A stretch of 64,000 nt of DNA from a bacterium (lineage in GTDB: Bacteria; Bacteroidota; Ignavibacteria; SZUA-365): the NCBI GenBank assembly GCA_020444325.1, contig JAHLLD010000003.1, positions 147,572-211,571 on the forward strand. Reading direction: 5' to 3'. A program made the translations under genes and the position numbers. Below, piece by piece: positions 9,919-28,702 of this stretch; position 1 is the first letter of the stretch, and each line of letters opens with the position of its first letter. The notes below the pieces were generated by a model. The model worked only from the letters and a program-made list of their open reading frames with translations. It was not told the DNA's origin and searched no databases.

Positions 9919-10019
9919 ATCCCGTCGTGTGAGGCAAATCGACGTCTCAAACCATTAATTATTATTAATCCCCCATTCAGACCCTCGAAAGATAGGGAGC
10001 GTATCTTTTCTTCGTACTC

Positions 10020-12180: not shown

Positions 12181-12854
12181 AGTTCGATACAACAGGAACA
12201 CCGGCGAATGGCTCGCCGAGCTGGGACGAGATTCGCACGCTGCTTGCTGGCATTCGCACGAATCTGGAGCGTCCGCAGGGTCCCGCCCAGGAGAACGTCC
12301 AGTCGGTATTCAGGACGCGCGCAGGGCAGTACGCAGTCAGGACCGAGGAACTTGAGGAGGAAACGGACGCGCGCGAGGACGTCCTGCAGTTCTCCCTCGG
12401 CAGTGATGCATACGCCGTGCCATGCGCGTGCATCGAAGAAATCATCCCGATGCAGAACCTCGTCGCGCTTCCGCACACGGCTCGTCCCATACTCGGCATA
12501 TCGAGCAATCGCGGACTGCTTTTCGCCGTCGTGGATCTGAAACGCATTCTCAATATCCCTGCTTCCGACCTGACCACCATGCACCGTTTGATCATCCTCC
12601 GTCACGAAGAGCTGCAGGTGGGATTACTGGTCGATGTCGTGCATGGGATGCGCAGCTTTGATATGGACCGTCTGCGGGATCTGCCGCAGGAATTGCATCA
12701 GACGACACATCGCTTTCTTCGCGGCGTCAGCAGTGACCATGTCCTGCTTCTGCGCTGCGACAAGGTGATGGAGGAAATCCGCCGCCTCAGCGGCAGCACG
12801 GAAACAGCGGACAGTGAACAACATTCCGAACAGCACGAACAGGTGCACGCATGA
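12177..12854 (+). CDS. cheW: CheW-like coupling protein (second copy)
   Basis: A 225-residue CheW-family protein with about 65 extra N-terminal residues before the domain. The domain starts near [22 protein letters not shown] and holds [19 protein letters not shown]. The GTG start overlaps the cheR stop (GTGA), and the stop overlaps the receptor ATG (ATGA). Translation is therefore coupled on both sides. Two different CheW proteins in one operon is seen in Pil-Chp (PilI, ChpC) and Frz systems, and one may load the receptor while the other helps array assembly. The long polar N-terminus has no recognised motif. Confidence 0.9.
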
Positions 12855-14647
12855 AATGGTTTGTCAATCTAAAAACGCGATATAAACTCTTTATCGGATT
12901 CGGTATCGTCATTGCATTTCTCCTGGCACTCATCGGCGTGGAGAATCTGCAGTCGTCCCGATCTCTTGTCGAGTACGAATCCATTTTTACGACACAGGTG
13001 CCGCTCAATCAGCAGGGAAGCGAACTCGTCAGCGAGCTGATGCGGGAGAGATTGCTGTTCGAAAGTATCGTCGAGGATGCCTCGACGGTCACGGGCAGCG
13101 GCGATTTCACCCAGGCACGTGATCTGTTCGTGCGGCAACTGCAGGAGGTCGAGTCGAATCTGCTGCGGAACCAGGCGCAGTTCGAGCGAACCCGCGCAAA
13201 TCTTGCAGGAAATAAACTGATCAAACCGCTGGAAAACGCGTATCAGCAATTCCGGAATATTTCGAAACTGCATGAGGAATACGCACAGCTCAGCGCCAAT
13301 GCACTCGAAAGTCTCGAACATGGCGACACGCTCAGATTCCGTGAGTTCAAAGCCGAGATCGACAAGAATGGCGCCGAATTCCATGGCAGCGTCGATATAT
13401 TTTCCTACGAATTGAAAAATCTGTTTGAAGCGTCGCGGGATCAGCTGACCTCGATCGAGGATACAGCGATGGTTGGACGCATACTTATTTTCAGCATTGG
13501 CATCGCGCTGGTGATATTTTTTGCGACGTTCATCTCACGGCAGATTTCCCAACCGCTGCGGCATGCCACCATGATCGCCGACAAGCTCGGGCAGGGTGAT
13601 ACGTCGGTGTCGATCACCATCGACAGGCAGGATGAAGTCGGGGAACTCCTGAGAACACTCGAAAAACTTCGCTTGAACTCCGAGCACGAAGCGCAGGTCG
13701 CGGCACGCATCGCCGATGGAGACCTGACTGTACAAATCACACCACTCTCGGAACAGGATGTACTCGGGAAAGCGCTGTCTACGATGGTCGAAAGGCTTCG
13801 TACACAGACGCGCGAAATGATAGAAGGAATTAACGTGCTCGCTTCCGCAACCGCGGAACTGTCGTCCACCATGGTGCAGATTGCTGCCGGTGCGCGGGAG
13901 ACAGCATCTGCGGTGAATGAGACCGCGGCAACGCTCGTGGAGGTAAAACAGGCCTCCCAGCTCTCGGATCAGAAAGCCAAAATCATCTCCGACAACACCC
14001 AGCAGACGCTGCGTGTCTCGCGTGATGGCGTCGATTCCATCGAACAGAGTATTTCTTCGATGGAAAACATTCGTGAGCAGATGCGCAGCATCGCGGAAAG
14101 TATCATTAAACTCAGTGAACAGGGACAGGCGATCGGCGACATTGTGACATCAGTCAATGATCTGGCCGAACAGTCAAACATTCTCGCGGTGAATGCCGCG
14201 ATCGAGGCGGCGAAAGCCGGAGAATACGGAAAGGGCTTCACCGTCGTGGCAAAAGAAATTCGCAACCACGCTGAACAGTCGAAGCAGGCCACCGGTAAGG
14301 TGCGTTCCATTCTTGTCGACACGCAGAAGGCTACCGCGTCCGCCGTGATGGTCGCGGAACGGGGGACGAAGCTCGCGGAAGACGGCGCACAGCTGAGCAC
14401 CGTGTCAGGGAAGGCGATACAGACCGTGATGAGCGGGATCAATGAGACCGCGGAGAGCATGCTGCAGATCGCAGCATCCGCCAAAGAACAGGTCGTCGGT
14501 CTCGACCAGGTCACCACGGCCATCACGCATATCAAATCGGCCAGCGAACAGAATGTCGAATCGATTCATCAGGTGGAACTCACAGCACAGAATCTCAAGG
14601 AACTGGGCACAAGACTGCAGCGCTTCGTCGAGCGCTACAAACTCTGA
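12851..14647 (+). CDS. Methyl-accepting chemotaxis protein
   Basis: A 598-residue chemoreceptor. TM1 spans about residues 11-33, a helical periplasmic domain (four-helix-bundle type by its heptad pattern) about 34-205, and TM2 about 210-230. A HAMP domain follows ([20 protein letters not shown]), and a second HAMP-like unit is seen ([15 protein letters not shown]). The signalling hairpin tip reads [20 protein letters not shown] and [20 protein letters not shown], a good match to the receptor consensus. No C-terminal CheR-binding pentapeptide is visible, in line with a CheR that carries its own TPR domain. It is the only receptor in the operon, so it is probably the dedicated input. Confidence 0.95.
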
Positions 14648-14664
14648 GAGTGCGGAGCTGAATT

Positions 14665-17340
14665 GTGATGAACGAAGCGGAATTCCTGGAAAAACTGCGT
14701 GAGGCCTTCTCCGTAGAGTCGGATGAGCATTTCCGGACGATACGAAAAGGACTTGCGGAACTCGAGCAGGATGCTGACGATCCCGTCAGTATCATCGAGC
14801 TCATTTTCAGAGAGGCGCACAGCCTGAAAGGTGCCGCGCGGGCCATTAATCGCGGCGACATCGAACTGCTGTGCCAGGCAATGGAAAGTCTGCTCGCGAT
14901 CTGGAAAAAGGATGCCTCCCTGCGAAGGCCGGAACATTTCAGCATGCTCGAGGATGCAATGGAGCTGCTGGAGGAATTACTGGCGTCAGTGGAGGAATAC
15001 TCACCGAACAGCGAGCCTCTGGCCTCGCTGACGGAAGCGATGAAGACGGAAAGTGATGCACTGAAGAAAGATCAGGGTGGAATTTCCATTTCGCCCATGC
15101 AGGCCTCCGCGTACGGTGGTGCCACGGATGATGGACAGTCTGAAATCATGCCGGCACAGGAATTGACAGAAGAATCTTCCCGGATCGAATCCGACGAGGA
15201 GCCGGACAACAGCTCCGTCGCACATGCACCTGCGGCGGGGCAGTCCGGATTACCGGAAAACCCCGCACTGCCGGGAAACCCCGCACTACCGGAAAGCCTG
15301 CGACACAACACGGCGAACGGGAACGGCTCGTCGAATGCTCAGCCATTCCTGAACCGGGAGCAGCCGCAACCGGGTAAAAGCAATGGCGCCCTGCAGGCCC
15401 CGACATCTGCCACGGCAATGCATGCTGGTAATGGGACTGCGCAAAACGGGAACGGAGGTCAGCATGCGCCTGACACTACCCGGCAGCAGAGCCCTGCGAA
15501 GCAGCAGAGCCCTGCGAAGCAGCAGAGCCCTGCGAAGCAGCAGGGGAAAAACGGACGCGAGGTTGTGCGTGAGACGGTACGCGTCTCGCTGACGGAGCTT
15601 GAAGCGCTGTACCGCCAGACCGAGGAGCTCAGCTCCATCAAGTACATGATCGGACGCAATGCCTCGGACATGCGTCGGGTCATGGATCAATGCAGGGAAT
15701 GGATACGCGAATTTCAAAAGTACCGTCAGCAGTCTATTGAAAGACTCGATACTTCTCCGACTGGCGGTACGGTGCAGCCTGCGGAACATGGAGATTACGA
15801 AAAGCTGCAGCATTTCCTGAAATGGACCGCACGGCAGATTGAGGGCATCGAAGATTCCATCGGAAAATCCATAGAAGACGGCAGGGGCACCATGTATATC
15901 ATGGACACACTAGCCGAGGCCATGATGGATCAGGCCAAACATCTGCTTCTTCTGCCATTCGCATTGCTCAGCGATAGCCTTGTCCCCATGGTGAGGAAAA
16001 TCGCCCGCGATCTCGAAAAAAATGTGCATTTCGATGTCCACGGTGAAGATATTCGTATCGATAAACGCATTCTGGAAATGCTCAAGGATCCGCTGGTGCA
16101 TATCCTCCGCAACAGCCTGGACCATGGGATAGAGTCTGTCGAATCCCGCGTGCGCGCGGGGAAACAGGCGGATGGACGAATCACGCTGCATATTCGTCTT
16201 GCGCAGGACAATAAGGTGGAGATCGTTGTCGAGGACGATGGCGCGGGGATAGATATCGAGAAAATCAGGGCAAAGGCCGTTCAGGAGAAAATCATCACGA
16301 AGCGCGAGGCGGAATCGCTCAGCGAGATGGATACGCTGGATTTGATTTTTCATGCCGGACTGTCGACCAGCCCGATTATCACTGACCTTTCCGGCCGGGG
16401 CGTAGGACTCAATGTCGTTCGGGAGAATATCGCTACGCTGGGCGGAGAGCTGCGTGTTGAAACGGAAAAGGGGAAGTGGACGAGATTCACAATGTCACTT
16501 CCGGTCTCTCTCTCGAATGCCCGTGGTGTGCTCGTGAGGAGTTCAGGGAGGATGTATATCGTTCCGCTGCAGCATGTTGATCGCGGCATGGTCATGCACC
16601 GGGAAGACATTTCACGACTCGACGGCAAATCCGTGATCGAATACAATGACCAGACCGTGACGTTGCAGCGGTTGGACGAGGTGCTCCGCATGCCCTCCGC
16701 AGTCAAACGCGAAGAGAACACGCAGTGCACACTGCTCATGCTGATGCTGGGCGGTTCCTTCCTTGCGGTCGAGGTCGATGAAGTACTCTGGGAACAGGAC
16801 GTTGTTGTCAAATCCCTGCCGGCTCCCATATCTCGTGTCCACACGATCGCCGGTGCCTCCCTGCTCAGTACAGGGGAACTCGTCCCCGTGCTTCACATTC
16901 CTGACCTCTTTTCCGCCGCCCGAGGTGGGGGACATGCCGAGCGGCATGACCGCACCGAGACGGTGGAAAAGGAAAGCAAAAACGTTCTCGTGGTGGATGA
17001 TTCCATCACCTCCCGCGTGCTTCTGCATGACATCCTGCTCTCGAGCGGATACAATGTCACAACAGCCGTGGACGGCATCGACGCGTTGACTTCGCTGCGA
17101 GAGGACCCCTTTGATATTGTCGTCTCCGATGTCGAGATGCCTCGCATGAATGGCTTTGAGCTCACGGAATCCGTGAGAGCGGACGAAAAGCTGCACGATC
17201 TGCCAGTGATACTGGTTACGGGACTCGAAACGAATGAGGACCGGGAGCGGGGCTTCGATGTCGGAGCCAACGCGTACATTATCAAGAGCAGCTTCGATCA
17301 GAGCAACCTCCTTGAAGTTATCACGCGGTTGATCGGATGA
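14665..17340 (+). CDS. cheA: CheA-type hybrid histidine kinase with C-terminal receiver
   Basis: An 891-residue kinase. Domains in order: Hpt (about 1-115) with the phospho-accepting His52 in REAHSLKGAARAIN; a low-complexity Pro/Gln/Gly linker (about 130-300) with tandem repeats; a helical dimerisation region (about 300-430); HATPase with HILRNSLDHGIE (N box), VEDDGAGID and GRGVGLNVV; a CheW-like regulatory domain (about 615-750); and a complete receiver (about 770-891) with VVDDS, phospho-accepting Asp in SDVEMPRMNG, Thr and Lys. The CheA-REC fusion resembles FrzE and ChpA. GTG at 14665 and ATG at 14668 both fit GGAG upstream. The stop overlaps the cheB start (ATGA). Confidence 0.95.
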   Translation: MMNEAEFLEKLREAFSVESDEHFRTIRKGLAELEQDADDPVSIIELIFREAHSLKGAARAINRGDIELLCQAMESLLAIWKKDASLRRPEHFSMLEDAMELLEELLASVEEYSPNSEPLASLTEAMKTESDALKKDQGGISISPMQASAYGGATDDGQSEIMPAQELTEESSRIESDEEPDNSSVAHAPAAGQSGLPENPALPGNPALPESLRHNTANGNGSSNAQPFLNREQPQPGKSNGALQAPTSATAMHAGNGTAQNGNGGQHAPDTTRQQSPAKQQSPAKQQSPAKQQGKNGREVVRETVRVSLTELEALYRQTEELSSIKYMIGRNASDMRRVMDQCREWIREFQKYRQQSIERLDTSPTGGTVQPAEHGDYEKLQHFLKWTARQIEGIEDSIGKSIEDGRGTMYIMDTLAEAMMDQAKHLLLLPFALLSDSLVPMVRKIARDLEKNVHFDVHGEDIRIDKRILEMLKDPLVHILRNSLDHGIESVESRVRAGKQADGRITLHIRLAQDNKVEIVVEDDGAGIDIEKIRAKAVQEKIITKREAESLSEMDTLDLIFHAGLSTSPIITDLSGRGVGLNVVRENIATLGGELRVETEKGKWTRFTMSLPVSLSNARGVLVRSSGRMYIVPLQHVDRGMVMHREDISRLDGKSVIEYNDQTVTLQRLDEVLRMPSAVKREENTQCTLLMLMLGGSFLAVEVDEVLWEQDVVVKSLPAPISRVHTIAGASLLSTGELVPVLHIPDLFSAARGGGHAERHDRTETVEKESKNVLVVDDSITSRVLLHDILLSSGYNVTTAVDGIDALTSLREDPFDIVVSDVEMPRMNGFELTESVRADEKLHDLPVILVTGLETNEDRERGFDVGANAYIIKSSFDQSNLLEVITRLIG
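15484..15543 (+). repeat. Tandem 18-bp repeat in the cheA linker
   Basis: Three identical 18 bp units (CAGCAGAGCCCTGCGAAG) plus a partial fourth encode QQSPAK repeated three times. A second, imperfect repeat just upstream (15254-15298) encodes NPALP units. Both lie in the flexible linker between the Hpt and kinase core, where slippage changes only linker length and keeps the frame because the unit is divisible by three. Confidence 0.95.
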
Positions 17341-18404
17341 CGCGCGTCTTCGTCATAGCGAAGGATGCCGTGCTTGCCGAACTCGCCTCGCGTGTACTCG
17401 GACAGCAATCGGAAATCGAGGTGGTGAAGGTGGTCCTTTTCGGTGAAGAGGTCATGCGTCAGCTGCATCGCGTGAAAGTGGATATCATTGCCGTTGACGG
17501 AGAACTGAATCCGGACGAAATGACGGATCTTACACGCCTGATCATGAATACCGACCCGCAGCCCATTGTGATCCTGGCGCGTTCAAACCGCGCTCCGGCG
17601 ATTCGATCCGCTGTGGATGCAACAGACACAGGAGCACTCGGCGTCCTTGAGATTCCGACGGACAGGGATAACGGCGCTTTCGCTTCGATGTCGGCAGAAC
17701 TCGCGCGAAATCTGCGTCTCATGTCGGAGATCAAGGTGATACGCAGGTGGGACAGCAGCCGCTTCGAGGCGCTTCAACGCATTTTCCATCCGGAGGCGGA
17801 GGAGGATTCTCCGCAGTACAACATCAAGCTCGTCGCCATAGGCGCATCTGCAGGGGGCACCAAGGCCCTTCAGAGCATTTTCCAGCAGCTGCCTGAGGAT
17901 TTTCCCGTTCCTGTACTCGTCGTACAGCATCTTGCCAGGGGATATGTGGGCGGACTCGCGCGTTGGCTTGCCGATCAATGTCCGATGAAATTCGTAATCG
18001 CTGAAGAAGGAATGTCGCTGCGGGCCGGAACGGTGTACCTGGCGTCTGACGACAAACACTTGACTGTGGGGCCAGATCATCGTATTCTGTTGTCCGATGA
18101 GGAATCCGTCAACGGATTCAAGCCCTCCATCGCTCGGCTCTTTTCCAGCGTACATGATACGTTCGGCGCAGATTGCGCCGCGGTACTGCTGTCTGGGATG
18201 GGGAATGACGGGGCGGCTGAAATGCGACGGTTACTTGATGTCGGTGCATGCACTATTGCTCAAGACAAGGAAACATCGCTCATTCATGGCATACCCGGTG
18301 AGGCGATCAAACTTTCAGCAGCCCGATTTATCCTGCCTCTGCAGGAAATTCCAACCGCGCTGCATGCCCTGGCGCTGCGAGGACAGGTATCGAAGCCGGT
18401 CTGA
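17337..18404 (+). CDS. cheB: CheB-type protein-glutamate methylesterase with degenerate receiver
   Basis: A 355-residue protein. The C-terminal esterase domain (from about 160) shows the triad: Ser171 in AIGASAGGTKAL, His in VVQHLARGY and Asp in LLSGMGNDGA. It removes methyl groups from the receptor, opposing CheR. The N-terminal 130 residues have a receiver-like pattern with Asp54 (IIAVDGELN), but the usual acidic pair is reduced to a single Asp (AKD) and the conserved Lys-Pro is replaced (LEIPTD). Phosphoryl control may therefore be lost or altered. It starts within the cheA stop codon. Confidence 0.92.
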   Translation: MTRVFVIAKDAVLAELASRVLGQQSEIEVVKVVLFGEEVMRQLHRVKVDIIAVDGELNPDEMTDLTRLIMNTDPQPIVILARSNRAPAIRSAVDATDTGALGVLEIPTDRDNGAFASMSAELARNLRLMSEIKVIRRWDSSRFEALQRIFHPEAEEDSPQYNIKLVAIGASAGGTKALQSIFQQLPEDFPVPVLVVQHLARGYVGGLARWLADQCPMKFVIAEEGMSLRAGTVYLASDDKHLTVGPDHRILLSDEESVNGFKPSIARLFSSVHDTFGADCAAVLLSGMGNDGAAEMRRLLDVGACTIAQDKETSLIHGIPGEAIKLSAARFILPLQEIPTALHALALRGQVSKPV

Positions 18405-18437
18405 GCATGTATTTCGCAGTTGAAGGATCATACATAG

Positions 18438-19730
18438 ATGACAAGCGGAATTGAAATACTCGTTGTAGAAGACAGTCCCACTCAGGCACTGAAACTGAAA
18501 TATGTCCTTGAAAAACAGGACTATTCCGTTCGTCTGGCTGTCAACGGGCGCGAAGGACTCGAAGCTATTCATCAGCAGCGTCCTACGCTCGTCATTTCTG
18601 ACGTCCTCATGCCCGAGATGGATGGCTATGAGTTCTGCAGCGCCATCAAAAATGACGATGATCTGAAGGAAATCCCTGTCATCCTGCTCACGACGCTGTC
18701 GGACCCGCAGGATATTATACGTGGACTGGAAAGCGGCGCTGATAACTTCCTCAACAAGCCGTACAGTGAAGAAGCACTGCTTTCGCGCATCAAGTACATC
18801 CTCATCAATATGGATGTGCGTACACGCATGCGTACGGGCATGGGAATCGAGATCTATTTTGCGAACAAGAAGCATTACCTGACTTCGGAGCGCATTCAGA
18901 TCATCGACCTTCTGCTGTCCACCTACGAGAACGCGGTTGAGAAAAACCGTGAACTCGAGACCACGAACAAGAAACTTCGGGCCGTACAGGAAGAGGTGGA
19001 GAAAAACAACGACCAGCTCAAACAGCTCAATGAGCAGAAAAACATGCTGCTGGGTATGGCAGCCCATGATCTGCGCAATCCACTCTACCTGATCGAGGGC
19101 TACAGCGATTTTCTTCTCAAGGATGAGAAAGATGAGCTCAGTGCCGAGCAACGCACCATTCTTGGGGCTATCCAGTCAAGCAGCACCTACATGGTGCAGA
19201 TGATCAACGATTTACTTGACGTACACAAGATCGAAACCGGGAAGATGGAAATGAACGTGGAGGAGGCGGATTTCCGTGAACTCGTGGAAGCCTCCATCAA
19301 ACGGCAGGAATTCGCTGCGGGAAAGAAGGGTGTGGATATTTCCTTCCGCCCACCAGAATCCGCTCCGAAAGTGCTGGTCGATCGAGGAAGAATAGAGCAG
19401 GTGATGTCCAATCTGCTCGACAATGCCATCAAATTCTCGTTCAAAGGCGCCGTTATAGAGGTGTATTTCCAGTATGACGAAAATGAGCTCATCTTCTCCG
19501 TACGGGATCATGGTCCCGGCATCCCCGACAAGGAGCAGAGCCGCCTGTTCAAGCCGTTCAGTACGACAAGCGTGAAACCCACAGGGAGCGAACGAAGTAC
19601 CGGACTCGGACTGGCCATCGCAAGGGATATCATTGAAAAGCATCAGGGACGCATCTGGGTGGAGAGTGAAATCGGGAATGGATCCACCTTCTCATTCACA
19701 CTGCCTGTCACCCTTGCCGTAACTTCCTGA
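18438..19730 (+). CDS. Receiver-histidine kinase hybrid, last gene of chemosensory operon
   Basis: A 430-residue soluble protein. An intact receiver domain (1-125; VVEDS, Asp55 in ISDVLMPEMDG, Thr, and Lys in NKPY) is joined by a coiled coil (about 150-205) to HisKA (His210 in AHDLRNPL) and a HATPase domain (NLLDNAIKF, DHGPGIPD, GLGLAI). With no free CheY in the operon, this receiver is a likely target of CheA, so phosphorylation would gate a second kinase. It lies 33 bp after cheB. The same domain order is seen in the partial gene at 1-819. Its downstream partner is unknown; the response regulator at 19823 is the nearest candidate. Confidence 0.92.
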   Translation: MTSGIEILVVEDSPTQALKLKYVLEKQDYSVRLAVNGREGLEAIHQQRPTLVISDVLMPEMDGYEFCSAIKNDDDLKEIPVILLTTLSDPQDIIRGLESGADNFLNKPYSEEALLSRIKYILINMDVRTRMRTGMGIEIYFANKKHYLTSERIQIIDLLLSTYENAVEKNRELETTNKKLRAVQEEVEKNNDQLKQLNEQKNMLLGMAAHDLRNPLYLIEGYSDFLLKDEKDELSAEQRTILGAIQSSSTYMVQMINDLLDVHKIETGKMEMNVEEADFRELVEASIKRQEFAAGKKGVDISFRPPESAPKVLVDRGRIEQVMSNLLDNAIKFSFKGAVIEVYFQYDENELIFSVRDHGPGIPDKEQSRLFKPFSTTSVKPTGSERSTGLGLAIARDIIEKHQGRIWVESEIGNGSTFSFTLPVTLAVTS

Positions 19731-19822: not shown

Positions 19823-20500
19823 ATGCGACTACTTATTGTCGAAGACGAAATCAAGGTTTCCCAGTTCCTGCAGAAGGGATTCGAGGAAGAACTGTTCTCC
19901 GTGGATACCGCGGAGGATGGGGACAAGGGGCTTTTCATGGCCCTCACCGAGAGCTACGACGTCATCATTCTCGACCTCATGCTTCCGAAAAAAACCGGCG
20001 TTGAGGTCCTCCGCGAGCTGCGCAAGGAGAAAACGACCCCGGTGCTCGTGCTGACGGCGAAGGGACAGCTCGAAAGCAAGGTGGAAGTTCTCAATATCGG
20101 TGCAGATGACTATCTGACGAAACCGTTTGCCCTCGCGGAGTGTATCGCACGCGTGCGGTCACTGCTGCGGCGTGCGCAGATGGACAAACCGACGAACGTA
20201 CTTACCGCAGACACGCTTGAACTCGATCAGATTCAGCACGTCGTCAAGCGCGATGGGAAGGTCATTGATCTCACCGTCAAGGAATTCAAGCTTCTTGAAT
20301 ACCTGCTGCGCAACAAAAACACCGTCCTTACCCGTTCGGCAATCATCGAGCACATCTGGGAAATTACATTCGACACAGGTACGAATGTGCTCGATGTCTA
20401 TATGACACGACTGCGGAAAAAAGTTGATGACGAGTATGAAGTGCGGCTCATACACACCATCCGTGGTGTGGGATACATTCTCAAGGACGAAGAGGAATGA
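19823..20500 (+). CDS. OmpR/PhoB-family response regulator
   Basis: A 225-residue transcription factor. The receiver holds VEDE, phospho-accepting Asp51 in IILDLMLPKKTG, Thr in VLTAKG and Lys in LTKPF. The C-terminal winged helix has LTVKEFKLLEYLL, the recognition helix region VLDVYMTRLRKKVD, and IHTIRGVGYIL. Such proteins bind as dimers to tandem direct repeats spaced about 11 bp. The kinase gene overlaps its stop by 4 bp (ATGA). Four promoters with exactly such repeats precede the pilus genes just downstream, making this protein the prime candidate activator of the pilus regulon (inference). Confidence 0.95.
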   Translation: MRLLIVEDEIKVSQFLQKGFEEELFSVDTAEDGDKGLFMALTESYDVIILDLMLPKKTGVEVLRELRKEKTTPVLVLTAKGQLESKVEVLNIGADDYLTKPFALAECIARVRSLLRRAQMDKPTNVLTADTLELDQIQHVVKRDGKVIDLTVKEFKLLEYLLRNKNTVLTRSAIIEHIWEITFDTGTNVLDVYMTRLRKKVDDEYEVRLIHTIRGVGYILKDEEE

Positions 20501-21507
20501 TGCCGGGTCCCCGGCAAAAAGCGGTACTTCTTTACGGCTCGACAATCTTCGGGGCGTTCGTCTTTATTTTTCTGATTGTCGTCACCGTCTTTACCCAGCA
20601 ATTTCCATCCTTTAATCTCACGGGCCTCGGGATTCTCTTTATTCCTGCAGGACTGTTCTTCGCATTTACCATCGGCTGGATAATCAGCCAGGAACTGCAT
20701 CCGAAATCCAATAAAGGCGACGGCGGTCTGAAGCCACCCTTGCCCGTTGATGGCGATGCGGATTTTCAGACCAAAATTCACAGCGTGCACAGCACCATTG
20801 AGAACATGCAGGCGGCGTACGAGCAGATTCAGAATTTCTCGGCCAATGCCTCTCATGAATTGCGCACACCGCTGACGATCATGCGTGGGGAAGTGGAACT
20901 CGCCCTGCGCAAGACCAAGACCAAGGAAGAATACCAGGAACTCCTCGGCAGTCTTCTCGAAGAGATCATGCGCCTTTCGCGTATCCTGGATGATCTTCTG
21001 CTTATCGCAAAGACGGAAATCGGGGAACGGCCCATTGAATTGCAGCCCGTCGATCTCGGGGAGCTGGTTGAAGAGATTGCGGATGAAGCAGAGATGTTTG
21101 CTGAACAGGCAGGCATCACGTTTACGCTCGAATCCAGTTTCGAAGTCTTTATCGAGGCCGAACCGCTGCGTATCCGCCGCGTGCTCCTGAACCTGATTGA
21201 TAATGCCGTCAAGTACAATCGAAAAAACGGAACGGTCACACTCAGCATGCGTCCCCGTGGCGACATGGTCGCGGTGTGCGTTTCCGATACAGGAATAGGC
21301 ATTCCGGAAGAAGCCATTCCCAGACTGTTCGAACGCTTCTATCGTGTCAATGACGGCTCAGCCTCCGACGCCAAGGGGACAGGGCTCGGGCTTTACCTGG
21401 TCAAGTGGATCGTCAAGAATCACGGGGGTTCGATCACCGTCGATTCGCAGCCAGGCAAGGGAAGCACCTTCTGCATCACCCTCCCAATCAGGAATAGCGG
21501 GGTATAA
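20497..21507 (+). CDS. Sensor histidine kinase without extracytoplasmic domain
   Basis: A 336-residue kinase. Two transmembrane helices (about 11-33 and 43-64) are separated by only about ten residues, so there is essentially no periplasmic sensor. A linker leads to HisKA (His120 in SHELRTPLT) and a HATPase domain with NLIDNAVKYNR, DTGIGIPEE and GTGLGLYLV. It is the cognate partner of the overlapping response regulator. Kinases of this shape sense within the membrane or through partner proteins. Given the adjacent pilin genes, a PilS-like sensing of membrane-stored pilin is possible but not shown. Confidence 0.93.
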   Translation: MMPGPRQKAVLLYGSTIFGAFVFIFLIVVTVFTQQFPSFNLTGLGILFIPAGLFFAFTIGWIISQELHPKSNKGDGGLKPPLPVDGDADFQTKIHSVHSTIENMQAAYEQIQNFSANASHELRTPLTIMRGEVELALRKTKTKEEYQELLGSLLEEIMRLSRILDDLLLIAKTEIGERPIELQPVDLGELVEEIADEAEMFAEQAGITFTLESSFEVFIEAEPLRIRRVLLNLIDNAVKYNRKNGTVTLSMRPRGDMVAVCVSDTGIGIPEEAIPRLFERFYRVNDGSASDAKGTGLGLYLVKWIVKNHGGSITVDSQPGKGSTFCITLPIRNSGV

Positions 21508-21509
21508 AA

Positions 21510-21537
21510 CATTAATACCGTTATATCGGTATTAATG
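21510..21537. repeat. Perfect inverted repeat after the kinase gene
   Basis: Arms CATTAATACCG and CGGTATTAATG (11 bp, perfect) are separated by TTATAT. It begins 3 bp after the kinase stop. There is no T run after it, so it is not a standard terminator; it could be an operator or an mRNA 3' end stabiliser. It lies about 34 bp upstream of the first pilus promoter repeat. Confidence 0.8.
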
Positions 21538-21570
21538 ACTCCGGCCCTCCCGTTTTCATCCTTTCACTCT

Positions 21571-21614
21571 TGTAATGATGGATTAAGCCGTTTGTAAGAA
21601 TGGCACGCTAGATT
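21571..21614 (+). promoter_or_regulatory. Pilus promoter 1: 11-bp-spaced direct repeats plus -10
   Basis: TGTAA (21571), ATTAA (21582) and TGTAA (21593) lie exactly 11 bp apart. Eleven bases after the last repeat comes TAGATT (21609-21614), a -10-like hexamer. The third repeat occupies the -35 position, as in PhoB-type activated promoters. The first pilin ATG is at 21701, with AGGAG 5 bp before it, so the leader would be about 80 bases. Transcription start and binding are predicted only. Confidence 0.7.
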
Positions 21615-21700
21615 GCGTATCAGAAATTCGAGAGAAAAAACCAGAACGGTTTAGCAGTTTAATTCTCTTTCACTCTCTTCACTTTCTTACAGGAGTTTTT

Positions 21701-22120
21701 ATGGGTACGCAACAGCTTCTTCTCATCGTCCTTGGTGTCATCATCGTCGGTATCGCAGTGGTCGTCGGTATCAACATCTTCGGTACGAACGCCGAGCAGG
21801 CCAACAAAGATGCGATCACGCAGGACTGTCTGCGCCTCGCAGCTGCCGCCCAGGGTTTCTATCGCAAGCCGACCATGCTCGGTGGTGGTAACAATAGCTT
21901 CGTCGGTATTGAAATCGAAGATTGCGGTATGTCCAACAATGGCGACATCATGACTGGCGAAAATGTCAATGGTACGTACGTTCTGAGTGGTGCAACGGCA
22001 ACGGGTCTTGTTGTTACGGGAACATCTCAAACGGACAATACTCAAACGGTCACGTTGACGCTTGACATGACCGGTACCACTGACGACGAGCGTGTCAGCA
22101 TCGCATACGCAGGCTGGTAA
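21701..22120 (+). CDS. Pilin-like protein, first of a tandem pair
   Basis: A 139-residue protein with an N-terminal hydrophobic helix (about residues 5-28, LLLIVLGVIIVGIAVVVGI) that starts right after MGTQQ, then a soluble domain. Cys43 and Cys75 are shared with the next gene and may form a disulfide. The segment MLGGGNNSF and the C-terminus YAGW are also shared. The layout is that of a major pilin, but there is no basic leader, no Gly/Phe prepilin cleavage site and no Glu5. The call rests on gene context (pilC, pilB, pilT, pilQ follow) and on the lollipop architecture. It has its own promoter and a strong terminator. Confidence 0.75.
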   Translation: MGTQQLLLIVLGVIIVGIAVVVGINIFGTNAEQANKDAITQDCLRLAAAAQGFYRKPTMLGGGNNSFVGIEIEDCGMSNNGDIMTGENVNGTYVLSGATATGLVVTGTSQTDNTQTVTLTLDMTGTTDDERVSIAYAGW

Positions 22121-22159
22121 GAGTCGCGATTCTGAAACGCAGAACAACAGTTTTTGTTC

Positions 22160-22192
22160 AACCGTCCCGCGCCTAGCGGGACGGTTTTTTTT
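22160..22192 (+). terminator. Rho-independent terminator after first pilin gene
   Basis: Stem AACCGTCCCGC / GCGGGACGGTT (11 bp, perfect) with a 5 base loop, followed by a T run. It makes the first pilin a monocistronic transcript, as is common for abundant pilin mRNAs. Confidence 0.93.
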
Positions 22193-22200
22193 CATGCAAA

Positions 22201-22244
22201 TGTAATGCGGTATTCATATCGCTGAAAGGTTGTATGAGTATTTT
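22201..22244 (+). promoter_or_regulatory. Pilus promoter 2: 11-bp-spaced direct repeats plus -10
   Basis: TGTAA (22201), ATTCA (22212) and TGAAA (22223) are spaced by 11 bp. Exactly 11 bases later is TATTTT (22239-22244). The geometry is identical to promoters 1 and 3. It begins 8 bp after the terminator of the first pilin gene and precedes the second pilin ATG (22306). Confidence 0.7.
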
Positions 22245-22305
22245 GCGTATCGGTGATAAGAGTAAGTAGGGTACGGGTCTCAACCACATTCTGGAGGACC
22301 GTATC

Positions 22306-22722
22306 ATGGGGACGCAGCAGTTATTACTTGTTGTACTGGGAGTCATCGTCGTCGGTATCGCCGTTTCCATCGCAATCTTCATTTTTGGCAGCAATGCGGA
22401 GCAGGCAAACAAGGATGCGCTCACGCAGGACTGCCTGCATCTTGCCTCCGTTGCGCAGGGTTACTACAAGAAGCCCCGGATGCTTGGTGGGGGAAACAAT
22501 TCATTTACAGGACTGCAGATATCTGATTGCGGCATGGAGGATTTCGGCACCGGGAGCGGTCAGAATCTGAACGGCACCTTCACCATCCAGAAAGCGGACG
22601 GAATGAGCCTCACCATCCAGGCTGTTTCCATTTCCAACAACACACAGACGGTAACGCTGACGCTGGATATGACGGTCATGGAAGGTGAGGAGCGCATAGA
22701 AATACTGTATGCCGGCTGGTAG
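22306..22722 (+). CDS. Pilin-like protein, second of a tandem pair
   Basis: A 138-residue paralogue of the preceding gene. The first 45 residues are nearly identical (MGTQQLLL, NAEQANKDA, TQDC), Cys43 and Cys75 are in the same places, and MLGGGNNSF, the NTQTVTLTLDMT segment and the terminal YAGW are conserved. The surface part between residues 78 and 110 differs most. It has a good ribosome site (GGAGG) and its own promoter. As with its sister, no prepilin leader or Glu5 is present. It may be an alternative major subunit or an antigenic variant. Confidence 0.75.
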   Translation: MGTQQLLLVVLGVIVVGIAVSIAIFIFGSNAEQANKDALTQDCLHLASVAQGYYKKPRMLGGGNNSFTGLQISDCGMEDFGTGSGQNLNGTFTIQKADGMSLTIQAVSISNNTQTVTLTLDMTVMEGEERIEILYAGW

Positions 22723-22776
22723 GGTATCCAGCATGTGTGTCTGCACCGAGGGGCGGGGAAGTGATTCTTTCTCCTT

Positions 22777-22820
22777 TGTAATCCGCAATTAAGCTTCTGT
22801 TAAGTCTGCCGAAGTATCTT
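22777..22820 (+). promoter_or_regulatory. Pilus promoter 3: 11-bp-spaced direct repeats plus -10
   Basis: TGTAA (22777), ATTAA (22788) and GTTAA (22799) are spaced by 11 bp, and TATCTT (22815-22820) follows 11 bases after the last. It shares extra bases with promoter 1 (TTGTAAT then ATTAAGC then a closing AAG). It would drive pilC and pilB. Confidence 0.7.
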
Positions 22821-22824
22821 TCCT

Positions 22825-22871
22825 CCTAGCCATAAGGAGTTCTCCGCTCTCGCTGGAGCAGTTATGGCAGG
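22825..22871 (+). promoter_or_regulatory. Structured leader at the predicted 5' end of the pilC mRNA
   Basis: CCT-A-GCCATAA pairs with TTATGGC-AGG, a ten base-pair stem with one bulged A. The enclosed part holds further complementary segments (CTCC with GGAG around GCTCTCGCT). It starts about 5 bases after the -10 hexamer of promoter 3, so it would lie at the extreme 5' end of the transcript. A role in mRNA stability or control of pilC translation is possible; no known RNA family is recognised. Confidence 0.5.
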
Positions 22872-22897
22872 AAGTAGGAATAGAAAGGAAAGATATC

Positions 22898-24343
22898 ATG
22901 GCGGATTTTCGATTTCAGGGTGTGGTACCATCGGGGAAGATGATACAGGGCACCATCTCGGCCAGTAACGCTGCCGAAGCCAAGAAGAAAATTCAGGACC
23001 TCTCGAAAGGTCGCTCGTTCAAGCTCGACAAGCTCGAGAAGCGGGTGGCCTTTGTGTACAAGGCCACAAAAGGTGAGAAAACTGTCGAAGGCGAGCAGAA
23101 AGCCTACTCGAAGAGCGAAGTTGAAAATGCGCTCACGCAAATGGGCTACAAAATCGTCTTCGTGCGGAAAAAAATGAACCTGAGCGTCGGGAAGCCACCG
23201 GTGGCCGACGTCATCACCTTTGTACGACTGAGCGCCGATCTCCTGCGTGAAAAGCTCCCATTCAATGAAGTACTGAATCTGCTCGCCAACGACATCGACA
23301 ACAAGGTGCTGCGAGAGACGCTGAAGGATATCAACACTGATCTTCGCAAGGGTGCTGAAAGTGAACGCGTCTTCATGAAGTACGAGGGCATTCTCGGGAA
23401 ATTCACCGCAAAGATGCTCGGACTCGCATCCAAGAGCGGTGCCATGGCCGAGATGTATGATTCGACGGCCAAATTCCTTGAACGTCGGCTCGAATTCAAG
23501 AAGAGCATGAAGAGTGCCATGCTCATGCCGATGATTACACTTGTGCTTCTGATTCTTGCCACGATCTTCTACGTCGCCTACATCTTTCCTGAAACCGCAC
23601 GCATGTTCCTGAAATATGGCATTGAACTGCCGCCGATGACGGAAGCAACACTCGAATTTTCCGACTGGCTTGTAGCGAATATCATCTGGTTCGTTATTGC
23701 CTTTATTGGAATGGGCGTCGGTGTGTTCATGATGTTCACCAACGAGAAAAGCAGAAGGTGGGTCGACAAAACCTCTTTCCGCGTTCCAGTAATGGGGGGA
23801 CTCATTCACAAAACCGCAATCGAGGTTTTTTGCCGCGTGTTTTATTCGCTGTACAGCGGGTCAGGTGAAAATATTGATGTTATAAAAACAGCGGCAGAAG
23901 CGACCGGGAATTCGTATTTCGAATACCAGATCAAGACCATAACAATCCCCATGATGCTCAAGCACGGTAAAGGTCTGCATGAGTCCTTTGAGGCATGCGA
24001 GGTATTTACCAAAACAGCGCTTTCGCGATTTCATGCGGGTGCGGAAACCGGCATGGTGCGCGAAACCGCTCTTCAGCTCGCCAACTACTACGAACGTGAG
24101 ACGACGTACAAACTGAAGTCCGTCGTGGATTTCATGCAGCTGTGGGTTGCCATGATTATCATGATCGTCATGACGGCCATCACTATCGTCTCTTCCGAAA
24201 CCGCAGTTATCAAGCCGAAAAGTGCGCCGGGCATGGGGGATCTTCTTCCCGCCATGCTCCTGGCCACCGGTTCGGTCAGAAATTTCCTAAGAAAGGCTAT
24301 GTATGGATGCCGCAGCTTCTTTACTCGAAAGAAAGATCGATAA
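22898..24343 (+). CDS. pilC: Type IV pilus inner-membrane platform protein PilC/GspF
   Basis: A 481-residue platform protein. The N-terminal region carries repeats of the FRFQGVVPSGKMIQGTISA type, common to PilC N-termini. Two GspF domains follow (about 130-250 and 330-450), each with a cytoplasmic helical bundle and a membrane helix; hydrophobic segments lie near 208-232, 264-288 and 420-442. The motif LLREKLPFNEVLNLLA is typical. The protein couples ATPase movement to pilin extraction and filament growth. The ribosome site is AAAGGAAAG. Its 3' end overlaps pilB by 41 bp, so expression of the two is tightly linked. Confidence 0.9.
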   Translation: MADFRFQGVVPSGKMIQGTISASNAAEAKKKIQDLSKGRSFKLDKLEKRVAFVYKATKGEKTVEGEQKAYSKSEVENALTQMGYKIVFVRKKMNLSVGKPPVADVITFVRLSADLLREKLPFNEVLNLLANDIDNKVLRETLKDINTDLRKGAESERVFMKYEGILGKFTAKMLGLASKSGAMAEMYDSTAKFLERRLEFKKSMKSAMLMPMITLVLLILATIFYVAYIFPETARMFLKYGIELPPMTEATLEFSDWLVANIIWFVIAFIGMGVGVFMMFTNEKSRRWVDKTSFRVPVMGGLIHKTAIEVFCRVFYSLYSGSGENIDVIKTAAEATGNSYFEYQIKTITIPMMLKHGKGLHESFEACEVFTKTALSRFHAGAETGMVRETALQLANYYERETTYKLKSVVDFMQLWVAMIIMIVMTAITIVSSETAVIKPKSAPGMGDLLPAMLLATGSVRNFLRKAMYGCRSFFTRKKDR

Positions 24344-26102
24344 GGTCGGCGTAGCCCTTCTTCACAAGGGTATTGTTGACCGCGAAACCGTCTCCAAGGC
24401 ACTGACAACCAAGGAGAAGGAAGCAGGGCGCCGTCACCGGAGCCTGGCTGAAATCCTTGTAGACGATTACAAGCTCGACCACCACACGGTGTTTTCCGAG
24501 GTGGCGCGTATTTATGCGTTCAAGACGCTGAAGATCGACGAGGCGATGACAGAGCGCCGCATCAATCTGATCAAACAGATGATCGAGCAGCTCACACAGG
24601 AACAGAAGGGTATCCTCTTCAAGTCGCGCACACTGCCGCTGCAGTTCGATAGCAGGACGCCGGACAAACTGGTTCTGATTTCGTCGATTCCGATCCACCG
24701 CGACATCCCGCGCATCGCCAACTTTTTCCGCGCGCTCAAGTACGAGGTGTATTATGCGGAGCAGAAGCAACTGCAGCCGCATATCGACAATATTCTCCGC
24801 GGAGACAATGTTTTTCTCGAATCCATCAAGGAGATGGAGGCTGAGCTTCAGGAATCCGACATGGAGTCGACCAACGACATTGATGAAGCTGAGCTCGATC
24901 AGGAAATCAACAAGTCGATGCTGGTCAACCTCTTCGAGGGCTGTCTGGTTGAGGCGGTGCGCATGGGCGTCAGCGATATCCACATCTTTCCGACAACGAG
25001 AACAGTGACGGAGTTTCATTTCCGCGTCGATGGTAAACTTGCGGTGTGGAACAAGGTTGAAGGGACGCGTCCCGAAGCCGTACTGGCTGTTGTCAAGGAT
25101 CGAAGCATGAACATTGATCGCTTCGAGCGTGATGCCGCGCAGGATGGTTTCATTCAGCGTACCATCGACAATACGGTTATTCGATTTCGTGTCTCCGTCC
25201 TGCCGATTGCCGGCTCGGAGTACCAGCAGAAATTTGAAAGTATAGTCATTCGCGTCCTTGACAGCCGCAAGGTGATCAAGGATATCGCGAAAATCGGTTT
25301 CCAGAAGAAAGCGTACGAATGGTTTCAGGATTCCATTTCCAAACCCCAGGGCATGGTGATTCTTACCGGTCCCACCGGAAGCGGTAAAAGTACAACCCTG
25401 GTGGCAGCGCTGTATTCGGTGATCACACCGCAGGTAAATGTCCTTACTGTCGAGGACCCTGTTGAATACGTGATTGACGGTGCCAGGCAGATCAAAATCA
25501 GCCACAAAGTTGATTTCGAGCAAGCCATCCGCGCAATCCTCCGTCACGACCCTGACATCGTCATGGTCGGTGAGATGCGCGATAAACTGACAGCCGACAT
25601 CGCCATCAAGCTGGCGAACACCGGTCACCTCACGTTTTCCACGCTGCATACGAACGATGCTCCCAGTGCCGTCACGCGTCTGTTCAAGATGGGCATCGAG
25701 CCGTTTCTGATCGCATACGCCATTAATCTCGTCGTCGCCCAGCGCCTGATGCGCCGTCTGTGCAACAAGTGCAAGCGTCCTGCCACCGAGCTCAATCATG
25801 CAGAACTGCAGAATGTCGGCTTCACCGAGGAGGAAATCGAGACCGTGACGTTCTATGAACCGGTCGGCTGCAGTGCCTGCGTGAAAGGCTACAAAGGCCG
25901 CGCCGCCATTCATGAAGCACTGTATTTCTCCAAAGCGATCCGGAAGACGATTTTCGAATCCGGTGAAGAAATCGACGAGGATGCTGTTCGCAGAATCGCG
26001 ATCAGCGAAGGAATGCTGACGCTGCGTGCCTCTGCGCGCGAGCGCGTCAAGGAAGGCGTGACCAGCGTCGCGGAAGTGATCTCCGCAACGATGTCGGATT
26101 AA
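24303..26102 (+). CDS. pilB: Type IV pilus extension ATPase PilB/GspE
   Basis: A 599-residue hexameric ATPase. The N-terminal 170 residues resemble the GspE-II/MshEN-type domain. The core has Walker A GPTGSGKSTT (about 356-365), Walker B IVMVGEMRD, the His box STLHTNDAPSAVTRL, and the four-Cys zinc motif CNKC and CSAC near the end, which marks extension-type ATPases. It powers pilus assembly through PilC. The start overlaps pilC. No MshEN c-di-GMP consensus was confirmed by eye. The retraction ATPase is encoded separately at 28703. Confidence 0.95.
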   Translation: MDAAASLLERKIDKVGVALLHKGIVDRETVSKALTTKEKEAGRRHRSLAEILVDDYKLDHHTVFSEVARIYAFKTLKIDEAMTERRINLIKQMIEQLTQEQKGILFKSRTLPLQFDSRTPDKLVLISSIPIHRDIPRIANFFRALKYEVYYAEQKQLQPHIDNILRGDNVFLESIKEMEAELQESDMESTNDIDEAELDQEINKSMLVNLFEGCLVEAVRMGVSDIHIFPTTRTVTEFHFRVDGKLAVWNKVEGTRPEAVLAVVKDRSMNIDRFERDAAQDGFIQRTIDNTVIRFRVSVLPIAGSEYQQKFESIVIRVLDSRKVIKDIAKIGFQKKAYEWFQDSISKPQGMVILTGPTGSGKSTTLVAALYSVITPQVNVLTVEDPVEYVIDGARQIKISHKVDFEQAIRAILRHDPDIVMVGEMRDKLTADIAIKLANTGHLTFSTLHTNDAPSAVTRLFKMGIEPFLIAYAINLVVAQRLMRRLCNKCKRPATELNHAELQNVGFTEEEIETVTFYEPVGCSACVKGYKGRAAIHEALYFSKAIRKTIFESGEEIDEDAVRRIAISEGMLTLRASARERVKEGVTSVAEVISATMSD

Positions 26103-26139
26103 TTACGCGTCGTTTCGCGTCCGCAGAACATTACAAATC

Positions 26140-26194
26140 TGTAATAGTATTGTAATGCGGAGTTCAGGCAGCGCCCGGATGCAGCGGGTATTTT
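26140..26194 (+). promoter_or_regulatory. Pilus promoter 4: direct repeats shifted by one 11-bp unit
   Basis: TGTAA (26140), TGTAA (26151) and GTTCA (26162) are spaced by 11 bp; a fourth, degenerate position would be at 26173. TATTTT lies at 26189-26194, which is where the other promoters predict it when counted from 26173. Thus the whole set is offset by exactly one unit. An inverted copy (CATTACAA against TTGTAATG) also overlaps. It would drive the minor pilin and pilT-pilQ genes. Confidence 0.6.
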
Positions 26195-26285: not shown

Positions 26286-26798
26286 ATGAATACCGGACAG
26301 ATGGCCCTGACAATCGGAGCGTTCATGCTCCTGGGGATGGTGATGCTCAACTTCCGCGGGTTGAATTTTCAGAACGAGGATGTGCTGAATACCAACACGT
26401 ATTCCCAGCAGTCCGTGGCTATCGGACGCACCATGATCGAAGAGATACAGAAATACCCGTTCGACGCAGCATGCAACAGCAAGAAAATTATCCGCCTGGA
26501 GGATCTGACTTCCTGCGGTCCCGGAGGCGGTGATATCTATCCAAACATGAATGATCTCGATGACTTCCACGGGTCGGTGTTCCGCAGTCCCAATCCCGGG
26601 GAGACCCCGACCTCGGCAATCCCGAAATGCCTCTGGGGCACGGAAGGCTTTACGGTTCGCTGTGATGTCCGGTACGTGCAGGAGTGGAATCCCGCCCAGA
26701 CGAGTTATTCGCGGACCTGGTTCAAACTCGTGACCCTTGTGATATCAAATGCATTCTCCGAAGACACCGTAACCATGTCCTATCTCGCAACCTACTAG
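26286..26798 (+). CDS. Minor pilin-like protein (PilV-like position)
   Basis: A 170-residue protein with an N-terminal hydrophobic helix (about residues 6-23, MALTIGAFMLLGMVMLNF) and a soluble domain with four Cys. The start at 26286 has GAGGA 5 bp upstream; the longer frame to 26232 has no site. The segment QQSVAIGRTMIEEIQKYPFD just after the helix resembles PilV-type minor pilins, where an arginine/methionine helix leads to a Pro. The usual prepilin leader and Glu5 are missing. It is the first gene of the minor pilin run and is 10 bp from the next. Confidence 0.65.
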   Translation: MNTGQMALTIGAFMLLGMVMLNFRGLNFQNEDVLNTNTYSQQSVAIGRTMIEEIQKYPFDAACNSKKIIRLEDLTSCGPGGGDIYPNMNDLDDFHGSVFRSPNPGETPTSAIPKCLWGTEGFTVRCDVRYVQEWNPAQTSYSRTWFKLVTLVISNAFSEDTVTMSYLATY

Positions 26799-26808
26799 TG
26801 AGCGCATC

Positions 26809-27483
26809 ATGAGCACCCATCTCGATATTATCGGATCCGTGATCATCGCCGGGATGATAATCCTGAATTTTACCGTTTTCATGGGTGAAAGGCAGGAGTC
26901 CCAGATTGAATCGACCAACAAAATCACCGCGCAGACGGAGATGACGGACATTACCGAGACGCTTCGTCACGATCTTCGCAAGGTCGGCTACGGTTGCGAC
27001 TCCGCGGCCATTCTGCGCGCAGAACCTACTCTGCTCGTGTTCCGCGCCGACCTCGACAATAACGGAAGTATCGACACCGTCGCCTATGCGTTCGTGGAGG
27101 ACAAGGCATCCACGACAAGTACTTCGACTTCCACCACCACAACAACGACGACCACGAGTGTGACGACATCAGAGGAAAGCGGCACGACGTACTACGTCAA
27201 TGATGAAGGGAATATCATTGAGGAGACCAAGGTGCTCACACCGCCCAAGTATCTGCTTTACCGTGTCGTCAACAGCCGGAAGGTGCCCGGGTATGATGTC
27301 GGACTGCAGGGAATGACGTTCAAGTACTACGAAAGCAATAAGTACGGTCAGCTGACGGAAACCACTTCTCTCGCAGCAATCAATGCTATAGCTGTCACGC
27401 TGCGTCTGCGCAGCAAGATGCAGGAGGATGGGAAGTATCAGTACACCGTAAACGAATTTACCGTCACTCCCAAGAATCTCTAA
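26809..27483 (+). CDS. Minor pilin-like protein with Thr-rich insert (PilW-like position)
   Basis: A 224-residue protein with a hydrophobic N-terminal helix beginning at residue 7 and the segment TEMTDITETLRHDLRKVGYG, which matches the post-helix region of PilW-like minor pilins. Residues about 101-125 are almost only Ser and Thr, a flexible and possibly glycosylated linker. As with the other pilins here there is no canonical leader. It ends 9 bp before the next gene, which has a strong GGAGGA site. Confidence 0.65.
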   Translation: MSTHLDIIGSVIIAGMIILNFTVFMGERQESQIESTNKITAQTEMTDITETLRHDLRKVGYGCDSAAILRAEPTLLVFRADLDNNGSIDTVAYAFVEDKASTTSTSTSTTTTTTTTSVTTSEESGTTYYVNDEGNIIEETKVLTPPKYLLYRVVNSRKVPGYDVGLQGMTFKYYESNKYGQLTETTSLAAINAIAVTLRLRSKMQEDGKYQYTVNEFTVTPKNL

Positions 27484-27492
27484 GGAGGAGCC

Positions 27493-28521
27493 ATGGGACA
27501 GCAATCGCTTATCATTGTCGCGCTCTCATCTCTGCTGCTGTCGATATCCGTTCTTGGTATCATGGGAGGGTGGAATTTCTCAAATGAAACGACCGCCGAA
27601 CTTTTCGAAAGGGAACAGGCTCTGAATGTCAGCCGCAGTGGCGTCAACATGGCCGTTTCCAAACTGCGGAAGCAGAAGAGCTGGCGCGCCGGTTTCGCCA
27701 ATTTCCCCGTAGCTGGGGGAGAGGTCTCCGTGCGCGTCGTTGATCTGGGTCCCGATACGGTCCGCATCATGGCAGCCGGTACGGTGAACGGATTCACCCA
27801 TCGCGCGGATGTCGAAGCAAAACTCAGTTCCATTTTCCCCAACGTGGAAAGCGCCCTGACGATCTTCGGAGACTCTGTTGAGTTTTCAAACAACGGCACG
27901 GCATGGGATATCGATGGACGGGATTATCTCGAGGATGGAGTGACACTCGGACCCAGTCCCCCGGTGAGTGGTATTGGCGTCCAGTCCAGCGAAACGGTCG
28001 AGGATTTGAAGGCCATGATAGATCCCAACGTGCATCCCAATATCACGGGTGCAGGTGGTTCTCCATCACTTGGTACAATAGGCACATCAAACCTTGCGAC
28101 GCTGCATGACTTTTATCGCGATCGCGCCACCGTTAAGCTGCCGGCAGGGAAGTATGCGGATAATTCCGTGTTCGGAACACCGAAAGCTCCGGAGATAGTG
28201 TACGTACCTGGCGATCTGGAATGGACGGGAGTCATCAGCGGTGCAGGCATTCTGGTCGTGGACGGCCAGCTGATCATGAAGGGAAAAGTCAGCTGGAAGG
28301 GCATCATTCTCAGCATGTCGGGAGACGTCAAGATCGAGCTTGGAGGTACGGGCACACCGTCCATTTTAGGCACCGTCTGGGTGGGCAATACCTCACCATC
28401 AGATGTGACGCACGTGCATGTCGACGGAAACCCCTCGCTCAAATACAGCTATACGACACTGATGACCATCCTCGGCAACCTCGGACTTCTTGACGTCGAA
28501 ATCTATAAATATTACGAGTAG
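27493..28521 (+). CDS. Minor pilin-like protein (PilX-like position)
   Basis: A 342-residue protein. The N-terminal helix (about 4-24) follows directly on MGQQS and resembles that of the major pilins. The next segment (ALNVSRSGVNMAVSKLRKQ) fits PilX-like proteins, which often have an Ala/Ser-rich helix after the membrane part. The C-terminal half has the repeated form GAGILVVDGQLIMKGKVSWKG, a pattern seen in PilX-like proteins of other phyla and suggestive of a beta-solenoid. It closes the minor pilin group; a 181 bp gap precedes pilT. The PilX assignment is by position and pattern. Confidence 0.6.
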   Translation: MGQQSLIIVALSSLLLSISVLGIMGGWNFSNETTAELFEREQALNVSRSGVNMAVSKLRKQKSWRAGFANFPVAGGEVSVRVVDLGPDTVRIMAAGTVNGFTHRADVEAKLSSIFPNVESALTIFGDSVEFSNNGTAWDIDGRDYLEDGVTLGPSPPVSGIGVQSSETVEDLKAMIDPNVHPNITGAGGSPSLGTIGTSNLATLHDFYRDRATVKLPAGKYADNSVFGTPKAPEIVYVPGDLEWTGVISGAGILVVDGQLIMKGKVSWKGIILSMSGDVKIELGGTGTPSILGTVWVGNTSPSDVTHVHVDGNPSLKYSYTTLMTILGNLGLLDVEIYKYYE

Positions 28522-28702
28522 AAGACGATTTTCGTATGAAATATCACCAAAAGAATTTTTTCTGTTTTTTACGGACCGCTCTTCCCCTGGTTGAATTAAA
28601 TGATTATATTTCAATGAATCCTGATAAAAACATCAAGCACAGGTTGAGAAAAGAGCGCCAAATCGCAACAAGTGAATCTGTGAACAATCGAAAGCTACCT
28701 AC

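Follow-up and report, generated by a model that had tools for sequence, protein, structure and literature searches.

What are the short direct repeats that precede the pilus genes of this window (the whole 64-kb stretch of DNA that was analysed), and which protein would read them? The first-pass annotation had placed such repeats at four promoters and attributed them to the response regulator encoded at 19823. We consider it probable (roughly 0.86, as judged from sequence) that the repeats are operators of this regulator, and that a CusR/HprR-like two-component system has been rewired as a master switch for type IV pili, chemosensory genes and T9SS cargo.

The genes concerned all lie on the + strand. 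The chemosensory operon (10020-19730, assigned by Pfam and translations) encodes CheW (10020), CheR-TPR (10549), a CheW-like protein (12177, assigned from translation and position alone), an MCP (12851), CheA-REC (14665), CheB (17337) and a REC-histidine kinase (18438). It is followed by the OmpR-type response regulator (19823-20500, with REC and Trans_reg_C domains), which is the proposed activator, and by its partner histidine kinase of 336 aa (20497-21507). Major pilin 1 (21701-22120) and major pilin 2 (22306-22722) are conserved in position, the former without a Pfam match, and pilC (22898-24343) and pilB (24303-26102) together span 22898-26102. Minor-pilin-like genes at 26286, 26809 and 27493 (26286-28521) likewise have no Pfam match. 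Both major pilins start MGTQQLLLIVLGV, and differ from classical type IV pilins in having a leader of about 2 residues and in lacking glutamate at position 5 of the mature protein.

Three of the promoters share a layout, here class 1, in which three 5-mers are set at exact 11-bp spacing and a TAnnTT -10 box lies 38 bp from unit 1. The pilA1 operator (21562-21614, + strand) comprises an inverted half TTTCA (21562), the units TGTAA (21571), ATTAA (21582) and TGTAA (21593), and the -10 box TAGATT (21609). In the pilA2 operator (22190-22244, + strand), the direct units are TTTCA (22190), TGTAA (22201), ATTCA (22212) and TGAAA (22223), and the -10 box is TATTTT (22239). The pilC-pilB operator (22768-22820, + strand) contains TTTCT (22768), TGTAA (22777), ATTAA (22788), GTTAA (22799) and the -10 box TATCTT (22815). 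The minor-pilin operator (26131-26194, + strand) is of a second class, and consists of TTACA (26131), N4, TGTAA (26140), TGTAA (26151) and GTTCA (26162), with GGCAGC (26167) in the -35 slot and a TATTTT -10 box (26189). Its unit 1 (26140) lies 49 bp from the -10 box, so that the array is one 11-bp unit further upstream; this offset had been recognized previously, and the earlier positions of the repeats and hexamers at 21571, 22201, 22777 and 26140 are all correct to the base. Two further proposals of the first-pass annotation, that the repeats stand in for a -35 box and that their sequence tunes expression, agree with what we find: no -35-like hexamer occupies its slot at the class-1 promoters of the window, and the third unit is promoter-specific and kept between species (always GTTAA for pilC, mostly TGAAA for pilA2). 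The -10 consensus is TAnnTT with G or T as the next base, in keeping with the Bacteroidota element TAnnTTTG (PMC6847099).

A fifth operator/promoter (9955-10007, + strand), absent from the first-pass annotation, precedes cheW and is identified by matrix, pattern search and conservation. Here the inverted half TTAAT (9955) is followed by N4, ATTAA (9964), ATTCA (9975), CGAAA (9986) and the -10 box TATCTT (10002). This box starts 18 bp 5' of the cheW start codon, from which it is separated by only 12 nt (10007-10020), and the transcript leader would therefore be very short.

The spacing and the positions of these sites are well separated from chance. Under the strict definition, when every spacing from 7 to 15 bp was tried on the two strands of the 64-kb window, matches occur at spacing 11 only; these are the + strand sites 21571, 22201 and 22777 and no others. 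We also scored the window (about 128,000 positions), a kind of scan that had been suggested as a check, with a weight matrix for which 19 sites, all taken from other genomes, served as the training set. The matrix re-finds all four known sites at ranks 1, 2, 4 and 5 (21571, 47.9; 22777, 44.9; 22201, 26.4; 26151, 10.2) and adds the new site at 9964 at rank 3 (30.5). The maximum score in 200 Markov-1 simulated strands is 12.2, so that 26151 is not significant by the matrix alone. Genome-wide counts are based on pattern searches rather than on the matrix. The window's own genome has 14 class-1 matches with up to 2 mismatches (11 with at most one, three with two) and the reversed pattern none, and 3 class-2 sites besides; 12 genomes of the family have 96, versus 5 reversed controls; and 16 genomes of the order have 89 with at most 1 mismatch, versus 0 reversed, with at least one match in 16/16 genomes. 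Outside the order, genomes of the wider class have the pattern about as often as its reversed control, because many of them are AT-rich.

One part of the operator had been overlooked, namely an inverted half 9 bp upstream of unit 1, which gives the pair TTACA-N4-TGTAA. The bases at -9 to -5 relative to unit 1, which lie outside the search pattern, read TTACA/TTTCA. Their complementarity to unit 1 is 3.19 of 5 positions, compared with 1.07-1.56 at 12 other registers. Site-by-site covariation of unit 1 with the inverted half falls short of significance (p ~0.06), and was dropped as a proof of the palindrome. The combination of inverted half and three units occurs at 23/24 pilin, 8/8 pilC, 7/7 cheW and 7/7 heparinase sites. 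Adhesin (7/8) and protease (9/15) sites have extra direct units at -11, and mostly at -22 too. The shifted-array pattern, in which unit 1 and the -10 box are 49 bp apart, has 29 matches in the order versus 0 controls, where the 29 include some class-1 sites with extra units, counted again. In a core group of the shifted-array sites, GGCAGC directly follows unit 3, 16 bp from the -10 box and hence in the -35 slot; the class-2 targets are minor pilin operons and one conserved secreted protein. As a stand-alone pattern, GGCAGC plus a -10 box was dropped, its one-mismatch matches being mostly chance, and GGCAGC sites are counted only when upstream units are present.

Counting the window's own genome, 10/12 genomes of the same family have a PilC relative (72-91% identical). 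The triplet-plus-38 geometry lies ahead of pilA1 in 9/9 genomes, pilC in 8/10 and pilA2 in 5/6, and stays while the intervening spacers vary between genomes. The 9964-type site is conserved before cheW in about 10 genomes, and the minor-pilin site is present in only 3/7 relatives compared with the window. The order regulator-kinase-site-pilin holds in three families of the order. In one complete genome some 190 kb separate the regulator from pilC, and the pilus promoters nevertheless retain their sites.

Assignment of 98 distinct sites to downstream orthologous gene classes gives major pilins (24), protease-like proteins (15), pilC (8), SprB-repeat adhesins (8), cheW (7), heparinase-like secreted proteins (7), a PilX-like minor pilin (6) and a histidine kinase (6). 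By Pfam, CheW, CheR, MCP, SprB repeats, Por_Secre_tail and a laminin-G domain are recognized, while the heparinase match is weak; the protease-like class has a T9SS sorting tail in the one example examined. Among the examined genes downstream of sites, none is for metal efflux, copper or oxidised-protein repair. A single OmpR-type regulon comprising both pilins, pilC-pilB and the minor pilin-to-secretin genes had been proposed. The single regulon holds up, and its extent was drawn too small, since it also takes in the chemosensory operon, a kinase, T9SS-tailed proteins and SprB-type adhesins. The minor pilin-to-secretin stretch finds no support as one unit: a different conserved element, TTGAATTAAATGATTATATTTCA, lies upstream of pilT (28591-28613) in the window and in close relatives, without the triplet, and pilT-to-secretin therefore probably has its own promoter. 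Since the 9964 site heads an operon that ends just before the regulator gene, autoregulation of the regulator by read-through is plausible.

The best NCBIfam model for regulator 19823 is TIGR01387 (256.2 bits, top of 96 matching families, and under the curated cut-off of 279.2 bits); the PhoB model TIGR02154 gives 188.3 bits, below its cut-off of 296.2. The protein is 48% identical to E. coli CusR and 42% to HprR, and is the sole CusR-like match at E<=1e-40 in its genome. Its nearest sequence family is thus that of CusRS/HprRS, SilRS, CopRS and CzcRS (TIGR01387/TIGR01386). Regulator 19823 stands as the putative binder, as first suggested, but as a CusR/HprR/CopR-like protein rather than one of PhoB type (256 vs 188 bits). 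PhoB itself was rejected as the regulator on its weaker family score and its different box, and control by PilR and sigma-54 on a regulator that has REC and Trans_reg_C only and on the presence of a TAnnTT -10 box.

The operators point to the same family. The E. coli CusR/HprR box is CATTACAAAATTGTAATG (PMC9302797) and the P. aeruginosa CopR consensus is CTGACAn5GTAAT (PMC11195947); the half-site pair of these proteins, TTACA/TGACA-N4-TGTMA, is also found in the operators here, and the heparinase sites, CCTGACAAAATTGTAAG, are a near letter-for-letter match to the CopR consensus. CusR, HprR and CopR operators have been described as the palindrome alone (PMC8249747, PMC9302797, PMC11195947). In E. 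coli K-12 cusC and hiuH, and in plasmid silC and silE, the inverted pair is accompanied by a direct unit at +11, and a candidate -10 box lies at +39. An Alteromonas plasmid has the pair, the +11 unit and a candidate -10 box at +38, and the Pantoea uraH promoter has a candidate -10 box at +39 with a weaker second unit; at a Vibrio locus, the +11 direct unit was not found. These gammaproteobacterial -10 assignments are sequence matches rather than mapped starts. The half-sites exactly 11 bp 3' of the published palindrome can be seen at position 3023 of locus L209 (E. coli cusC) and 4381 of L210 (hiuH); they read TGTCA in cusC and TGTAA in hiuH. The additional half-site 11 bp downstream in cusC and hiuH suggests that the CusR/HprR palindrome is only part of the family operator.

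Distant homologues of the regulator (about 50 loci, 51-63% identical, pilus genes not nearby) have the same geometry. Of the spacings compared (7-15 bp), triplets at 11 bp stand out, and do so on the regulator's strand only; the -10 peak falls at the same distance (13, versus 0-5 at other offsets). This signal comes from 12/50 loci, several of them 5' of the regulator gene itself, with the half-site TTTAAT. In three genomes (G102, G079 and G138), a conserved TTTAA/TTTCA/TTTAA-type triplet occurs 3' of the kinase beside a distant regulator, with no pili nearby (position 5272 in locus L156, 6166 in L157 and 7595 in L158).

Compared with CusRS-type systems, which target efflux and repair genes through one or few sites per genome, the system described here has about 17 sites, with further direct units, before pili, chemosensory genes and secreted proteins. 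The kinases differ as well. CusRS-type kinases have a large periplasmic sensor, whereas the window kinase has two membrane helices and a loop of about 16 residues, without a periplasmic sensor domain. By hydropathy, 10/10 readable pilus-linked kinases have 333-356 residues, two helices and a loop of 14-24; the kinases of 44 distant systems, judged by hydropathy only, have 470-524 residues and a loop of 130-165. The missing sensor would fit a kinase rewired to a membrane signal.

We infer binding, activation and polymerase contact as follows. The phosphorylated regulator would fill the inverted pair TTACA-N4-TGTAA and then continue head-to-tail onto two further half-sites at 11-bp intervals. 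Its last subunit would end 11 bp short of a -10 box of the Bacteroidota type, in a promoter with no -35 element. RNA polymerase would be recruited much as by PhoB, with the promoter-proximal subunit presumed, by analogy, to contact the sigma factor (PMC4415409). In one variant (adhesins and many proteases), extra direct units upstream replace the inverted half; in the other (minor pilins and one secreted protein), the array sits one turn upstream, with GGCAGC in the -35 slot. Pili, the chemosensory operon and T9SS-exported surface proteins would be switched on jointly, probably along with the regulator itself by read-through, by what would be a metal/redox-type system whose kinase has lost its periplasmic sensor. 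A more tentative extension, which we think may well prove wrong, is that the two-helix, formerly metal/redox kinase senses something in the membrane, for instance pilin stock or surface contact, and that one regulator reads a three-type operator grammar which gives each group its own expression level. Pili and chemosensing would use the inverted pair with direct units, adhesins and proteases five direct units, and minor pilins the shifted array with GGCAGC.

Comparison with PhoB bears on whether 19823 is merely a neighbour of sites bound by another OmpR-type regulator of the genome, for example its PhoB. The PHO box is similar in that an OmpR-type winged helix binds 11-bp head-to-tail units at a fixed distance from a -10 box; PhoB-like regulators as a group use direct repeats in this way (PMC4415409), and the genome has, at first look, 59 candidate places for OmpR-type proteins. 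The half-site, the inverted first unit and the sequence family (188 vs 256 bits) are unlike PhoB, however. The half-site pair is that of the CusR/HprR box rather than the Pho box, the genome has no second CusR-like regulator at that E value, the distant homologues show the same geometry beside their own genes, and the regulator-kinase-site-pilin adjacency recurs in three families, so that we regard another binder as quite unlikely. That the arrays are silencing operators, with the regulator repressing or both repressing and activating, seems unlikely. Repression is possible among OmpR-family regulators, unphosphorylated CusR has been described as repressing its target (PMC8249747), and extended arrays of five units could silence; the lack of a -35 box and the fixed -10 distance in class 1 are nevertheless what one would expect if an activator stands in for the -35 box.

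An origin of the repeats as chance AT-rich words, or as a mobile or REP-like repeat with no role in transcription, is exceedingly improbable. The match between pattern and reversed control in AT-rich genomes of the class shows that chance suffices in other orders, but in this order it is ruled out by the 89 vs 0 count, the location before orthologous genes, the strand bias, the variable spacers and the restriction to spacing 11.

Operation of the sites by the CusR-like regulator would set this lineage apart from the classical case, in which PilR acts with sigma-54 on pilA and PilS senses within the membrane (PMC6058289). PilS-PilR of Pseudomonas and Geobacter is likewise a two-component system that sets pilin expression; it differs from the present one in its use of sigma-54, where we find an OmpR-type regulator and a TAnnTT -10 box, and in the six membrane helices of PilS, where the kinase here has two. 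A copper/peroxide-family regulator appears to run pili, the chemosensory operon and T9SS-exported adhesins and enzymes as a single programme in this Bacteroidota lineage, which is largely uncultured. In open-licence papers we found nothing specific on pilus control by a CusR/CopR-type regulator, or on pilus control in Ignavibacteria; since only such papers were covered, this silence is weak evidence of novelty. The sites yield a precise genome-wide list of targets, which is testable in a heterologous system.

Two smaller features occur in the DNA before pilin genes. An inverted repeat, CATTAATACCG-TTATAT-CGGTATTAATG, lies downstream of the kinase stop codon and ahead of the pilA1 operator (21509-21536); variants of it seem present in close relatives. 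In several relatives the operator itself occurs in tandem copies ahead of pilin genes, with a separation of 105 bp seen three times in one genome (G005:C14:48964-49217) and one of about 131 bp in three others (G008:C128:83084-83258; G009:C223:27636-27811; G010:C219:425-600), which suggests promoter duplication.
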